Positions 13,556 to 64,000 of a DNA stretch of 64,000 nt are shown piece after piece. Where the stretch lies: the NCBI GenBank assembly GCA_016278265.1, contig JADQCE010000002.1, positions 744,001 through 808,000 on the forward strand. The letters run 5' to 3'. Under the pieces are notes generated by a model, which was not told the origin of the DNA, did no database searches, and saw only the letters and a list, made by a program, of their open reading frames with translations. The translations under genes were made by a program, and so were the position numbers. Within the stretch, counting starts at the first letter, position 1, and each line of letters opens with the position of its first letter. Origin of the DNA: Halothiobacillus sp. (GTDB taxonomy: Bacteria > Pseudomonadota > Gammaproteobacteria > Halothiobacillales > Halothiobacillaceae).

Positions 13556-16500
13556 ATGACGTCCGGTCTCGCCTCCGACACCTCCCCCCATCTTGATGCC
13601 CCCGTCGATCCGGTGATCGACGAGGTGTCGCTCGATACCCTCTTTGGCGAAGTTCGTCGCCATATCCTCGACCGCCAACACCCGATTTCGGGGCTACTGC
13701 CGGCCAGCACCGCGGTGACCGCCCATGGCGACTACACCGACGCCTGGGTGCGCGATAACGTCTACAGCATCCTGGGCCCCTGGGCGCTTGGCATCGCTTG
13801 CCGTCGCGGCGGGCAATCGGCCCAGGCCTTCGAGCTCGAACAGGCGGTGGTCCGCAACATGCGCGGGTTGCTGCTGGCCATGATGCGTCAGGCCGATCGG
13901 GTCGAGCGGTTCAAGCACAGCCTCAACCCGATCGATGCGCTGCATGCCAAGTACGACACCGCGACCGGCGAGGCCGTGGTAGGTGACGAGGAGTGGGGAC
14001 ACCTGCAACTGGACGCCACTTCGCTGTTTGTGCTGATGCTGGTGCAGATGACCGCGGGCGGCCTGACGATCGTGCAGGGTCGTGACGAGGTGGATTTCAT
14101 CCAGAACCTCATCTGGTACCTGTCTCGGGCGTACGTGATCCCCGACTACGGGATCTGGGAGCGTGGCAACAAGATCAACCACGGTGTGCGTGAACTCAAT
14201 GCCAGTTCACTCGGCCTGGTGCTGGCTGCGCTGGAGGCGGCCGACGGCTTCGATCTGTTCGGCGAACAGGGTGATGACGCCAGTCGATTGCAGGTGGTGC
14301 CCGATGATATCGCCCGGGTGCAGCAGTGTCTGGATTCCATCCTCCCCCGGGAATCGGCCTCAAAGGAAATCGATTCAGCACTGCTCGCCGTGATCGGATT
14401 TCCGGCCTTCGCCGCCGGTGACAAGGCCGAGGAGGTGGGTGAGCGCATCGAGACACGGCTGGCCGGGCGCTACGGATACAAGCGCTTTCTGCGCGACGGA
14501 CACCAGACCGCGATCGAGGATGAAACCAAGCTTCACTACGAGCCGGAGGAACTTGAGGCCTTTGCCCGCATCGAGTGCGAGTGGCCGTTGTTTTTCACCT
14601 ATCGGCTGATCAATGCCTGTTTTCGCGGGGATCGCGCGGCGGCCATGTCTATTCATCGGCAGATCCAGCAGGTGGCGGTCTGCGAATGCGGCGCACCGGT
14701 GTTGCCCGAGCTCTATTACGTGCCGGCCGAGTCGATCGAGACCGAGCGTGACGCCCCCGGCTCTGCCGATCGCCTCGCGAATGAAAACCGACCGCTGGTC
14801 TGGGCCCAGAGCCTGTGGGTGGTCGGTCGGTTGTTACTGGCGGGACGTATTCAACCGCGCGACATGGATCCCATCGGTCGTCATCGGCCTCGGGGGGAAA
14901 CCCCCAGTCCCGAGATCAACGTGGCGCTGCTGGCCCAGACGCCGTCAGTGGCCGAGCGGCTCGAGGCGGCCGGCATTGCGCCGATCTCGTGGCCGGACCG
15001 GACCCGGACGGGCACGATTCCGGCCGACGTCCTGGTCGAGCGACTGGCCTCGGTGGGTGCGAATGCGCGCCTTGCGCTGACGGGGCGTCCCAGGCGTCGC
15101 CTGCTGGGCCTGTCGGCAGGCCGGGTGATCGCCTCCGACGAGGGCGATGTCGCGGTGATCCCGGCCCTGTTCGACACGAATACCTTCCTCCTTGGACGTG
15201 ATACCGAATTACTGGTCCACGAGATTCGTACCAGCCTTTCCTACCTGGCCCGGTATGCCCGCGGTCCGGGTCGCCCGCTATGGGCGATTCCGGTCTTTGA
15301 CTGGATGCTCGACGGGCCGGGGGGCGCGACGGTGTTGGCATTTTTCGACCAGCTTTCGAGCGGCCGGGTTGACGGGGTTCGTGTCGAGCGCCTGGACGCG
15401 TTGGTTGAGGGCGCGGCGAGGTGGCAATTACCCGGCGAGCTCATTGACGCGCCCACCGAGCAACCCGTCCCTGACGGTCAATGGGATTGGGGGGGTGATG
15501 TCGATGCCATTGCCGCCGAGCTGGGCGAGACTCATTCTCTCGACGAGCTGATCGGGGCATTCGGGCGTATCACCGCGCTGGATGAACGGCTGGCGTTGCT
15601 CGAATGGCTGGGGCAGGGGGCGTTGTCTCCCGAGCAGACGTTTGCCGATGTCGACGGCGAGTTGCGCGACTGGAAAGGTCATTGCGTCGCCTTGTTACGG
15701 CTCGCACAGAGGGTGGGTGCTTGGCGGGTAATGCGCCTGGCGGCCGATCTCGCCGGCGTGGTCGACGGGTTCCTCGAGGTCGCCTTGATGGATCTGGTCG
15801 TACGGCAGAAACGGCTCGCCGTGGGTCGTTCCTACAGCCGCTCGGCCGTCATCGACGCGCCGATCTCGAACCGCGAGATCCTGCGACGGATACACGCCTA
15901 TTGCGATGACGATGCACGGGAACGGTCCCTGACCCAGGAGCTCGTGATTCACCTTGGTGCCTGGTTGCGTGCCGAGCCGGACCTGTTCTGCAACGTGATC
16001 ACTCTGCGCACCGGACCGCTGCTGCAGATCCTGGTGGCCCTGCGGGCCCGTGAGGCGGCGATCCCGCCATCGCAGGCGCTGGATGACCTTGTCGGCATGG
16101 CGCCGCACGCCTTGCGCGACCGGCTGCGCGAGGCGATCGACTGGCGCGATCAACCCGAACGGCTCGAGGCGTTGCATCGACGAGATACCGCCCGCCTGTC
16201 GAACGAGCCGATCGGGGGCGAGGTGGCCACCTCGCCGGTCGCTTCGGTTCTGGATCGACATGGGTCGGGAGACGGCGGGGCTGAGCATGATGCGGCACGC
16301 TCGGTGGACTGGTACCACCGTCGTGAGATCGGCGGGGCGATGAGTCGGTTGCCGGAACGCTTTTACGAAGGGGTCTGGGGCTTGCTCGGTCACGTTCCGG
16401 CGTTGGTGATCGGCAACCGCTTCGATCCGCGCAATGTGCTCGACAGCGCGCTTTATCGCGGCCAATCGACCGCCCGTGAGCGCAACTTCGCCCTGGCCGT

Positions 16501-16846
16501 CGAGCATCGGCTCAATCGAATCGAGGCACCCGAATACCGTGAATTGAACGTCGAGGCGATCGCGGCGCTGACCGAGGTCGTGGCGCAAGCTCCGGAGCTG
16601 TCGATCGAGGAACCGCTGGTGCTCGACGTGGTGATCGGTCACGCCGTGCGTCTGGCCTGGCTCCATGAGCACCCTGATGACGAGGGGCGCTACGACGAGT
16701 CACGGGCAGATGCCTGGCAAGCCTTCTACCATCGGTCGCCTCAGGCCGTGGCCCACTGGGTGGGCGCGGCCCTGGATTACTTGCTCATGGCCGACGTCGA
16801 ATCGGCGAGTGTGACAGAGGATGCCGGCGATGATTCTTGCGGGTGA
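13556..16846 (+). CDS. phosphorylase kinase alpha/beta-subunit homologue (GH15-like, KPBB family)
   Basis: 1096 residues, nearly as long as the eukaryotic regulatory subunits (about 1100-1240) and similar to them along the length. The N-terminal GH15-like (alpha6/alpha6) domain spans about 30-450 with GDYTDAWVRDNVYSI, WGHLQLDATSL, PDYGIWERGNKINHG, ELNASSLGLVLAALEA, RFLRDGH and ECEWPLFFTY. The C-terminal KPBB-type region (about 660-1070) has QKRLAVGR, LTQELVIHLGAWLRAEPDLF, LPERFYEGVW and VEHRLNRIEAPEYRELNVEA. The Glu of IWERG may be the GH15 general acid; I cannot place the base. In animals these subunits regulate a kinase on glycogen phosphorylase. No such kinase is here, and the bacterial role is unknown. 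It overlaps glk by 17 bases. The alternative start is GTG 13547. Confidence 0.85.
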   Translation: MTSGLASDTSPHLDAPVDPVIDEVSLDTLFGEVRRHILDRQHPISGLLPASTAVTAHGDYTDAWVRDNVYSILGPWALGIACRRGGQSAQAFELEQAVVRNMRGLLLAMMRQADRVERFKHSLNPIDALHAKYDTATGEAVVGDEEWGHLQLDATSLFVLMLVQMTAGGLTIVQGRDEVDFIQNLIWYLSRAYVIPDYGIWERGNKINHGVRELNASSLGLVLAALEAADGFDLFGEQGDDASRLQVVPDDIARVQQCLDSILPRESASKEIDSALLAVIGFPAFAAGDKAEEVGERIETRLAGRYGYKRFLRDGHQTAIEDETKLHYEPEELEAFARIECEWPLFFTYRLINACFRGDRAAAMSIHRQIQQVAVCECGAPVLPELYYVPAESIETERDAPGSADRLANENRPLVWAQSLWVVGRLLLAGRIQPRDMDPIGRHRPRGETPSPEINVALLAQTPSVAERLEAAGIAPISWPDRTRTGTIPADVLVERLASVGANARLALTGRPRRRLLGLSAGRVIASDEGDVAVIPALFDTNTFLLGRDTELLVHEIRTSLSYLARYARGPGRPLWAIPVFDWMLDGPGGATVLAFFDQLSSGRVDGVRVERLDALVEGAARWQLPGELIDAPTEQPVPDGQWDWGGDVDAIAAELGETHSLDELIGAFGRITALDERLALLEWLGQGALSPEQTFADVDGELRDWKGHCVALLRLAQRVGAWRVMRLAADLAGVVDGFLEVALMDLVVRQKRLAVGRSYSRSAVIDAPISNREILRRIHAYCDDDARERSLTQELVIHLGAWLRAEPDLFCNVITLRTGPLLQILVALRAREAAIPPSQALDDLVGMAPHALRDRLREAIDWRDQPERLEALHRRDTARLSNEPIGGEVATSPVASVLDRHGSGDGGAEHDAARSVDWYHRREIGGAMSRLPERFYEGVWGLLGHVPALVIGNRFDPRNVLDSALYRGQSTARERNFALAVEHRLNRIEAPEYRELNVEAIAALTEVVAQAPELSIEEPLVLDVVIGHAVRLAWLHEHPDDEGRYDESRADAWQAFYHRSPQAVAHWVGAALDYLLMADVESASVTEDAGDDSCG

Positions 16847-17849
16847 CATCGGCGGGACAAGTTCGCGCCTGGCACTGTTTGCCGCCGGTGAGCCAGCGGC
16901 TCGATTCAAGCAGACCCTGCCCAGTCGGGATTACGCGGATTTTTCCGCGTTGCTGTCGGCCTTCCTCGACCTAGCCGGTCGGCACGACCACGGGAAAATC
17001 GAGGCGGCGGCGTTCGGCATCGCGGGCCCGGTGCAGGGCGAGGGCGCCGATGCTCGGGTGCAGGCCACCAACCTGCCCTGGACCTTGTCGGGGGCGGCGA
17101 TTGGCCAAGCCCTCGGCGGCGCGCGGGTGCGGCTGGCCAATGACCTGATCGCCGTTGGTCTGGGCGCGCTGGCAAGCCCGCTCGACCGACGGGTCAATCT
17201 CAATCCCGAGGCCACGCCGGCCGCAGGGCACGCCGCCGTGATCGCGCCGGGCACCGGGCTGGGCGAAGCCCTGTTCTTCCATGACGGGCAATGCCACCAC
17301 CCCATGCCGAGCGAAGGCGGGCATTGCGATTTCGGACCCAACGACGAACGCGAGGCGGCGTTGCTGAGTTACCTGCGTGGGCGGTTCGGTGGTCACGTCA
17401 GTTACGAGCGCATTCTCAGTGGCGACGGCTTTTCCTCGCTCTACGCCTTTGCGCGCCACGCGGAGCTTGGGCGGCCGGCCCCGGGTGCCGATGGACAACT
17501 GTCGGCGGCATCGGACCCCAACGCCCTGATCACGCAGTGGGCGAATCGCGGCGAGGACGAATGCGCGGTGATCGCCTGTCGACTGTTCGCCCGGATTCTT
17601 GGCGCGGAGGCCGGCAACCTGGCGCTCAAGTCGCTGCCGACCGGTGGGGTCTTCCTCGCCGGTGCCATCGTCGGACATATCTTGCCGTTCCTGCGCGACC
17701 AGACGCTGGAGGGCTTTCTGGACAAGGGAAGGTTTGCGACCATGCTCGGCCGTATGCCTTTGTGGGTGGTTGCCGACGGCGGACTCGGTCTGGCCGGCGC
17801 CCGACAACTCGCCGAGCAGGAGATGGCTTCAAGCAGGGGAGAACGATGA
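16830..17849 (+). CDS. glk: glucokinase
   Basis: 339 residues from the ATG at 16830, which has AGAGG nine bases upstream; the ATG at 16821 abuts that box. It phosphorylates glucose with ATP. Visible are the phosphate motif LAGDIGGTSSRLALF, FGIAGPVQGEGAD, the active-site stretch VRLANDLIAVGLG, IAPGTGLGEALF, SEGGHCDFGP and the C-terminal PTGGVFLAGAIVGHILP. It overlaps the phosphorylase-kinase-like gene by 17 bases and thiE by four (ATGA). This coupling suggests that free glucose from storage polysaccharide is its substrate. Confidence 0.93.
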   Translation: MILAGDIGGTSSRLALFAAGEPAARFKQTLPSRDYADFSALLSAFLDLAGRHDHGKIEAAAFGIAGPVQGEGADARVQATNLPWTLSGAAIGQALGGARVRLANDLIAVGLGALASPLDRRVNLNPEATPAAGHAAVIAPGTGLGEALFFHDGQCHHPMPSEGGHCDFGPNDEREAALLSYLRGRFGGHVSYERILSGDGFSSLYAFARHAELGRPAPGADGQLSAASDPNALITQWANRGEDECAVIACRLFARILGAEAGNLALKSLPTGGVFLAGAIVGHILPFLRDQTLEGFLDKGRFATMLGRMPLWVVADGGLGLAGARQLAEQEMASSRGER

Positions 17850-62944: not shown

Positions 62945-64000
62945 TCACACCGTCACGTTCAGTTCGATCGGGCCTTTTCGCCGCTCGATATTGACCGCGA
63001 TGTCGTTGCCATGCCGACGAATGATCAAATCGAGTTCTCCCCCCCGGTGCCGAATACGCCTTATGCGCAGCCAGTTGATGTAATCGGGTAAACGCGGGTG
63101 ATCCAGTGAAACGCGGGCCGCGTCCGGATCAAAGCGCAAACCGAGTATCGCTTCCAGGAGCATGAACACGGAGCCAGCCGCCCAGGCCTGCGGTGAGCAG
63201 GCCACCGGGTAATGCGTCGGTGCCTGCCCCGTTATCCGCCCGAATCCGCAGAACAGCTCCGGCAGGCGATGTAGGTCGAAGTGAATGGCGGCGTTGAAGA
63301 GCCCCTCGAGCAGTACGAGGGCCTCGTCCTTGTGACCGTAGGAGGCCATGCCCGCTGCCGCCAGGGCCGTGTCGTGCGGCCAGACCGAACCGTTGTGATA
63401 GGACATCGGGTTGTAGCGGCACTCCTTTTCGAAGATGGTGCGCACGCCCCAGCCGTTGAACGCGGCCGGTGAAATCAGCCCGGCACTTACCCGGGCCGCC
63501 CGGTCGCGAGAGACGATGCCGGAATAGAGGAGATGCCCGGGGTTGGAGCTGCGCACCGTGCAGGGTCGGTCGTCACCGTCGATCGCCAGGGCGTAGGTGT
63601 CGATCTCCTCAAGCCAGAAGCGCTGCTCGAAATGCGCCTGCAGATCATCAGCCTTTCGGCGCCAGTCGCTCGCCTGGGAATCGTGGCTGAGGACTTCGGC
63701 CAGTTCGGCGCCCCGGCGCAGGGCATCGAAGGCATACCCCTGTACCTCGCACACGGCGACCGGTGGACGGGGTGGTTGTCCGTCGGCGTGAAAGACGGCG
63801 TCGTCCGAATCCTTCCAGCCCTGCTGGACCAGGCCCTGACCTTCATGACGCGCGTAGACGAGAAAGCCGTGTTGTGCCAACTGTCCCGTGACCCATGCCA
63901 GGGCTCGCGTGATGTTGGGCCAGATCTGCGTGATGAATTCGCGATCGCCGGTGCGACGGTAGTAGCGATACGCCAACATCACGAACAGGGGCGTGGCGTC
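62945..64000 (-). CDS. glycogen-debranching-enzyme-like glycoside hydrolase, C-terminal part
   Basis: 351 codons visible; the N-terminus lies beyond the window, and the frame stays open to the edge (DATPLFVMLAYRYYRRTGD). It matches the C-terminal (alpha/alpha)6 domain of amylo-alpha-1,6-glucosidase-type proteins: GQGLVQQGWKDSDDAVFHADG, PPVAVCEVQGYAFDALRRGAEL, FNGWGVRTIFEKECRYNPMSYHNGSVWPHDTALAAAG, ACSPQAWAAGSVFMLLEAI. It probably acts on alpha-glucans; the substrate cannot be fixed from this part. It is interesting given the glucokinase and phosphorylase-kinase-like genes at 13-18 kb. Confidence 0.88.
   Translation of the reverse strand, partial: DATPLFVMLAYRYYRRTGDREFITQIWPNITRALAWVTGQLAQHGFLVYARHEGQGLVQQGWKDSDDAVFHADGQPPRPPVAVCEVQGYAFDALRRGAELAEVLSHDSQASDWRRKADDLQAHFEQRFWLEEIDTYALAIDGDDRPCTVRSSNPGHLLYSGIVSRDRAARVSAGLISPAAFNGWGVRTIFEKECRYNPMSYHNGSVWPHDTALAAAGMASYGHKDEALVLLEGLFNAAIHFDLHRLPELFCGFGRITGQAPTHYPVACSPQAWAAGSVFMLLEAILGLRFDPDAARVSLDHPRLPDYINWLRIRRIRHRGGELDLIIRRHGNDIAVNIERRKGPIELNVTV

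Follow-up and report, generated by a model that had tools for sequence, protein, structure and literature searches.

What does a full-length relative of the animal phosphorylase kinase (PhK) alpha and beta subunits do in a bacterium? The question is raised by a gene of 1096 codons at 13556-16846 of the stretch of Halothiobacillus sp. DNA analyzed here (the window, 64,000 nucleotides). An original prediction, made from the letters of the window, had recognized the likeness to the animal regulatory subunit and the coupling to a glucokinase gene, and had proposed a glycogen role of unknown mechanism. Our analysis indicates that the protein is probably a cytoplasmic GH15 exo-alpha-glucosidase that supplies glucokinase with glucose freed from glycogen or maltodextrin, and not a kinase regulator. 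Homology, predicted fold, invariance of the catalytic residues, gene linkage and the genome's glycogen genes are observed here; the activity, its substrate (alpha-1,4 and/or alpha-1,6 ends), the part played by the C-terminal domains D2-D5 and the direction of evolution are inferred. The gene and its domains are as follows:

13556-16846, plus strand: PhK alpha/beta-like GH15 protein, 1096 aa (open reading frame (ORF), Pfam, phmmer and predicted fold)
13625-14875, plus strand: GH15 (alpha/alpha)6-barrel domain D1, about residues 24-440 (Pfam GH15 and VIA-align; border set by us)
16052-16795, plus strand: KPBB_C domain, residues 833-1080 (Pfam)

The ORF opens at an ATG, with a GTG 9 bases upstream as an alternative in-frame start, and on our reading of the N-terminal sequence no hydrophobic signal stretch was seen. 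A Pfam search placed Glyco_hydro_15 (PF00723) on residues 24-820 (E 1.7e-61, 208.8 bits against a cut-off of 22) and KPBB_C (PF19292) behind it on residues 833-1080 (E 3.4e-73, 246.2 bits against a cut-off of 27), both far above threshold, so that the protein is not a generic GH15 enzyme only; none of the NCBIfam models scored above its own cut-off for this protein. Searching the PDB with phmmer (E up to 1) brought up the two human PhK subunits, alpha at E 3.9e-170 and beta at E 4.1e-142, both matched in three stretches distributed over the 1096 residues, and neither this search nor one with a 38-row profile (E up to 5) found a third distinct sequence. The KPBB_C match, together with the phmmer and profile matches to PhK alpha and beta, rules out a chance or GH15-only resemblance. 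No other gene in the genome, which comprises 2.73 Mb in 23 contigs, gave a GH15 match. The genus is most likely Guyparkeria: in G158, a genome of the same genus, the protein is identical to that of Guyparkeria sp. SCN-R1.

An AlphaFold2 model, computed from 38 rows (the window and loci of the named scan described below), reached a mean pLDDT of 77.7 and a pTM of 0.77, and the first eight Foldseek matches were all PhK alpha or beta chains (E 1.5e-53 to 6.7e-48). VIA-align superposed the model on PhK alpha (human PHKA1, 8jfk) with a Z of 47.2 and an rmsd of 3.1 over 747 residues, covering residues 22-869, while the last domain, residues 916-1082, superposed on human alpha 1051-1218 with a Z of 17.6. 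Single-domain GH15 enzymes aligned with about residues 16-433; the nearest by Z were the 5Z3 series (about 28 over 329-338 residues), 5Z3A being the Kribbella flavida isomaltose glucohydrolase KfIG (PMC12446779, cited here and below from excerpts), and fungal glucoamylases followed at Z 21-23.5. The structure comparison thus matches the model both to PhK alpha and, with an (alpha/alpha)6 barrel at Z 21-28, to GH15 enzymes. Profile, predicted fold and the catalytic glutamate pair make the protein a member of the GH15 family; the KPBB_C domain behind the GH15 region and the full-length match to PHKA1 and PHKB make it a member of the PhK alpha/beta (KPBB) family. The resemblance that the original prediction had claimed, across both the GH15-like and the KPBB C-terminal part, is therefore borne out by Pfam, phmmer and predicted fold alike.

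Family membership leaves a choice between an enzyme and a regulator, on which the active site bears directly. Its residues lie at the following positions:

13733-13735, plus strand: Tyr60, matching in position the Tyr hydrogen-bonded to the base in solved GH15 hydrolases (Tyr326 of AgGD, Tyr337 of TtGA, Tyr48 of KfIG; PMC12446779), placed by sequence spacing, not structure
13754-13756, plus strand: Asp67, the GH15 subsite -1 Asp (Asp333 of AgGD, Asp344 of TtGA, Asp56 of KfIG; PMC12446779), placed by alignment
14159-14161, plus strand: Glu202, general acid, equivalent to human alpha Glu185 (alignment; PMC10978961, likewise cited from excerpts)
14708-14710, plus strand: Glu385, general base, equivalent to human alpha Glu371 and replaced by Lys in human beta (alignment; PMC10978961)

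The catalytic pair of human alpha, Glu185 and Glu371 (PMC10978961), aligns with E202 and E385. In an alignment extended from 101 to 118 bacterial rows (117 distinct sequences, L025 and L029 being identical), E202, E385, D67, Y60, W64, R66, E340 and E342 are invariant in 118 of 118. The Tyr of the GH15 alpha1-alpha2 loop hydrogen-bonds the catalytic base, and counted from the subsite Asp it stands at -7 in two bacterial enzymes (Tyr326, Tyr337) and at -8 in KfIG (Tyr48) (PMC12446779); Y60 sits 7 residues ahead of D67. Compared with one human alpha and one human beta sequence, the bacterial loop stands apart: human alpha, which keeps the Asp as well as both Glu, has a 6-residue deletion there, a Gln at -7 and its nearest Tyr at -9, and human beta lacks the Tyr, with Lys for the base, Gln at R66 and Lys at W64. 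Conservation is concentrated in D1, where 91 of 415 positions are invariant, as against 3/200, 2/120, 2/120 and 8/167 in the later four domains (15/607 together) and 0/35 in the linker 881-915, the domain borders in these counts being our own. Such a pattern is in keeping with an enzyme in which the barrel is the most strongly constrained part.

Adjoining the gene downstream is a glucokinase gene:

16830-17849, plus strand: glucokinase (PF02685, E 7.1e-81; Pfam)

Its likely start is the ATG at 16830, with GAGG nine bases upstream, and the stop codon of the PhK-like gene occupies 16844-16846, which yields the 17-base overlap that had been predicted; an alternative in-frame ATG at 16821 would make the overlap 26 bases. 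It is the sole PF02685 match in the window's genome, as are the single matches in G158, G269, G192 and G249, and each time it is the neighbor of the PhK-like gene.

The loci of 37 Pseudomonadota carriers other than the window were searched at E 1e-12 for glucokinase (Glk), GlgA, GlgB, GlgC, GlgX, MalQ, GH57 and two types of phosphorylase; 20 stretches of 20 kb each, taken arbitrarily from twelve of these genomes, served as control. A glucokinase or glycogen/maltodextrin gene was present at 26 of the 37 loci and at none of the 20 controls (Fisher p 8.7e-8, uncorrected for kinship), and in all 26 linked loci the nearest such gene lay less than 1 kb from the PhK-like gene (788 bases at most). With the window included, linkage is seen in 27 of 38 genomes and 12 of 22 genera (hand tally). 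The named scan gave 12 linked loci out of 13 in Pseudomonadota (L068 is unlinked), mostly close kin of the window among the best 80 of 588 relatives. The arrangements are:

GatA-GatB-Hsp33-PhK-Glk-HemL: Guyparkeria, Halothiobacillus and L039
PhK-Glk, directly downstream: G249 (ATGA overlap) and G192 (51 bases apart)
Divergent glucokinase: G154
PhK-GlgB-GlgX, with GlgB-GlgX downstream: ten genomes of one genus
Divergent GlgB, GlgX and GlgC: G303 (L027)
GlgB-GlgX-MalQ-PhK, with GlgB-GlgX-MalQ upstream: G634
Divergent MalQ: G1203 and G1115
Glk - KDPG aldolase - PhK - MalQ: L155 (Pfam)
Variants of the L155 arrangement: L156, with 6-phosphogluconate dehydratase beside Glk, and L158, which adds a MalK-type ABC ATPase (Pfam)

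The coupling to glucokinase proposed earlier thus holds, by overlap in the window and by glucokinase neighbors in several lineages. At L155 and L156, Entner-Doudoroff genes accompany the glucokinase and PhK-like genes, and a DUF4032 protein with a Kdo-kinase-like region is encoded nearby.

The remainder of the genome supplies the glycogen context. GlgA (PF08323), GlgB (GH13), GlgC, MalQ and a GH57 protein are grouped about 120 kb from the PhK-like gene (GlgC and MalQ were named by reading translations, and both match Pfam-confirmed kin), and a DUF3417-type GT35 phosphorylase is encoded on a different contig. Together with the neighboring genes, this set supports the glycogen role that had been claimed. 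No GH13 ORF other than GlgB was found in the genome, and GlgX is therefore missing. This absence, along with the likeness to KfIG, makes an alpha-1,6 activity of the PhK-like protein possible; a GDE_N_bis protein, described below, is a further debranching candidate.

Based on these observations, we propose the following model. The N-terminal (alpha/alpha)6 barrel, with Glu202 as the acid and Glu385 as the base, would take terminal glucose off glycogen, or off the maltodextrins and branch stubs that phosphorylase and MalQ leave behind; the overlapping glucokinase would turn the freed glucose into glucose-6-phosphate, and domains D2-D5 may assemble or position the enzyme. If this is true, Guyparkeria, whose members are halophilic sulfur oxidizers, would gain a route from stored glycogen through free glucose to glucose-6-phosphate beside phosphorylase. 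A Sulfolobus mutant provides a precedent for glycogen breakdown by an intracellular GH15 glucoamylase (PMC11046441, in excerpt). The mechanism, left as unknown in the original prediction, is in our opinion probably that of a GH15 hydrolase, to which the kept catalytic positions and the neighboring genes point. In the model, animal PhK alpha and beta would be members of the same family that lost their catalytic activity and were co-opted to hold a kinase. We suggest, tentatively and below even chances, that bacteria keep the working form, a glucokinase-coupled intracellular glycogen glucohydrolase from which the animal subunits descend, and that alpha was silenced by deletion of the Y60 loop with both Glu kept; by our inference, loss of this loop explains the intact-looking but silent site of human alpha.

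Relatives are patchy in Pseudomonadota and recurrent in cyanobacteria. PF19292 was matched in 14 of the 369 genomes taken from the class, 8 of 398 drawn from the phylum (the window's genome among them), 18 of 244 from the order to which G494 belongs and 3 of 289 from the class of G634, giving 38 distinct carriers over all draws, between which some genomes are repeated. One of 14 named control genomes, that of Synechococcus elongatus, also matched. The named scan found at least 588 relatives among 592 stretches; the best 80 of the 588, which were those analyzed (67 cyanobacterial and 13 from Pseudomonadota), all have frames of 1055-1143 aa, and the carriers from the domain search have open frames of at least 993 aa, one of them with an internal TAA (G717). 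Relatives lacking the C-terminal half, which would have spoken against the predicted kinship, do not occur among these best 80, although shorter ones are possible beyond them. In G717 (contig C60; L127, L133) the KPBB_C match is reported with the one internal TAA, though the ORF taken is 1028 aa long. In a tree of 44 rows over the D1-D2 region the human sequences sit on long branches and 16 of the 41 inner branches are left open; the origin of the animal proteins cannot be read from it.

Several observations weigh against the hydrolase interpretation. The linked loci are not independent, since ten of the 26 belong to one genus and three to the window's genus, and 11 of the 37 Pseudomonadota loci (10 of 22 genera) have no such neighbor: L017, L018, L019, L020, L024, L130, L133, L134, L135, L165 and L168, the contig of L024 ending 341 bases past the gene. 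Among the 67 cyanobacterial loci in the best 80 of 588, of which 38 are at least 20 kb long and which were searched with the queries used for Pseudomonadota, GlgB lies in the flank of two, 7 to 8 kb off, and Glk in none; this near-absence of linkage weakens the neighborhood argument for cyanobacteria. The stretches of the model with pLDDT below 50 (52-61, 199-211 and 304-342) include active-site loops, so that the model does not give the active-site geometry. The catalytic Glu alone do not settle the mechanism, according to PMC12446779, and human PhK alpha keeps both and is nevertheless inactive on maltose, isomaltose and glycogen (PMC10978961). Lastly, the base is followed by Leu in 112 of 118 rows and by Val or Ile in the other 6, whereas the hydrolytic GH15 enzymes compared in PMC12446779 carry Gln; human alpha, too, has Leu there.

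This last residue is also what lends weight to a GH15 enzyme with another reaction, either a maltodextrin transglucosidase or a hydrolase of isomaltose, trehalose or an osmolyte alpha-glucoside. A retaining GH15-like transglucosidase, dextran dextrinase, is known, trehalases occur among GH15 members (both PMC12446779), and the closest GH15 fold is that of an isomaltose glucohydrolase. The glycogen and maltodextrin genes next door nonetheless favor an alpha-glucan substrate, and the adjoining glucokinase fits free glucose, though a transglucosidase could release glucose as well; we consider such a reaction unlikely. The animal precedent suggests instead a noncatalytic glucan sensor, in which D1 would bind glycogen ends without cutting them and the C-terminal domains would regulate phosphorylase, glucokinase or GlgB in the manner of PhK. 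Human alpha, with both Glu and no measured activity, does work within a regulated kinase; D5, which contacts the kinase subunit in human alpha, has a counterpart here; and the glucoamylase inhibitor acarbose is bound by human PhK and activates it (all PMC10978961, the last as cited there). Against such a sensor stand the strict conservation of the catalytic set, including a Y60 that human alpha and beta lack, and the far weaker conservation of D2-D5. The locus, moreover, holds no kinase gene: the earlier statement that none is present is correct for the window, and a PF00069 search of the genome returned a single match, in a 571-aa frame on another contig.

Genome G303 bears on the same point. 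It is 98% complete and encodes GlgB, GlgX and GlgC next to the PhK-like protein, but a search for a PF00343 phosphorylase found none in it, so that phosphorylase control cannot be the shared role unless the gene was missed there. Phosphorylase is hence not present in every carrier genome: PF00343 was matched in 13 of 14 carriers, against 9 of 17 non-carriers (G001-G020 minus G005, G008 and G018), and GT5 glycogen synthase in 14 of 14 against 9 of 17, a comparison to which we give little weight. We judge the sensor quite improbable, and more generally an animal-like regulatory role is the less likely reading, given the kept GH15 catalytic positions, the glucose- and glycogen-enzyme neighbors in several lineages and the lack of a phosphorylase match in G303. 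The exo-alpha-glucosidase supplying glucokinase is the explanation we retain. In G249, a gene for a 1099-aa Ser/Thr kinase-AAA_16 protein (L016:12514-15810, plus strand) is divergent from the PhK-like gene; it is probably not a partner, since it is among nine kinase matches obtained in G249.

The original prediction had also drawn a debranching-type enzyme at the end of the window into the glycogen role:

62945-63982, minus strand: GDE_N_bis/MGH1-like glycosidase, truncated at the window end, with 345 of its 719 aa inside (Pfam; context only)

The gene is real, with 719 aa in the genome, but it lies about 45 kb away and outside the unit, and the tie to the PhK-like gene was dropped. At L117:6945-10105 it is accompanied by a glycosyltransferase-like gene upstream, and the two possibly form a separate alpha-glucoside unit.

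The family is not new, as E. coli PkgA is in print and the domain is in Pfam, and the protein described here is a new member; among the papers listed by a literature search, most of them judged from titles and the beginnings of abstracts, none was on these bacterial proteins. PkgA resembles it in being tabulated as "phosphorylase kinase and glucoamylase" (PMC3977695, in excerpt). Two E. coli records, possibly of pkgA, match at about 25% identity over 30% of the query, far more distantly than the Guyparkeria and cyanobacterial proteins; an E. coli record, NZ_OL790696.1, spans 4.8 Mb and is filed as a plasmid, although it is apparently a chromosome. KfIG (GH15, 5Z3A) shares the D1 fold (Z 28.0, rmsd 3.3 over 332 residues), but it is a single chain of 371 residues, 18% identical, with Gln after the base where Leu is found here. 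Human PHKB matches along the length of the sequence, whereas it has Lys at the base and changes at Y60, W64 and R66. Human PHKA1 (8jfk) comes closest, with its full-length sequence match, its fold matches at Z 47.2 and Z 17.6 and both catalytic Glu; it differs in the six residues deleted at the Y60 loop, in having shown no hydrolase activity (PMC10978961) and in acting within a complex with a kinase and calmodulin, while the bacterial locus has no kinase. According to the 2024 structure paper, the physiological significance of the PhK glucoamylase-like domains still needs study (PMC10978961), and a relative in bacteria that keeps the whole catalytic set, encoded in operons with glucokinase and glycogen enzymes, offers a testable way into them.

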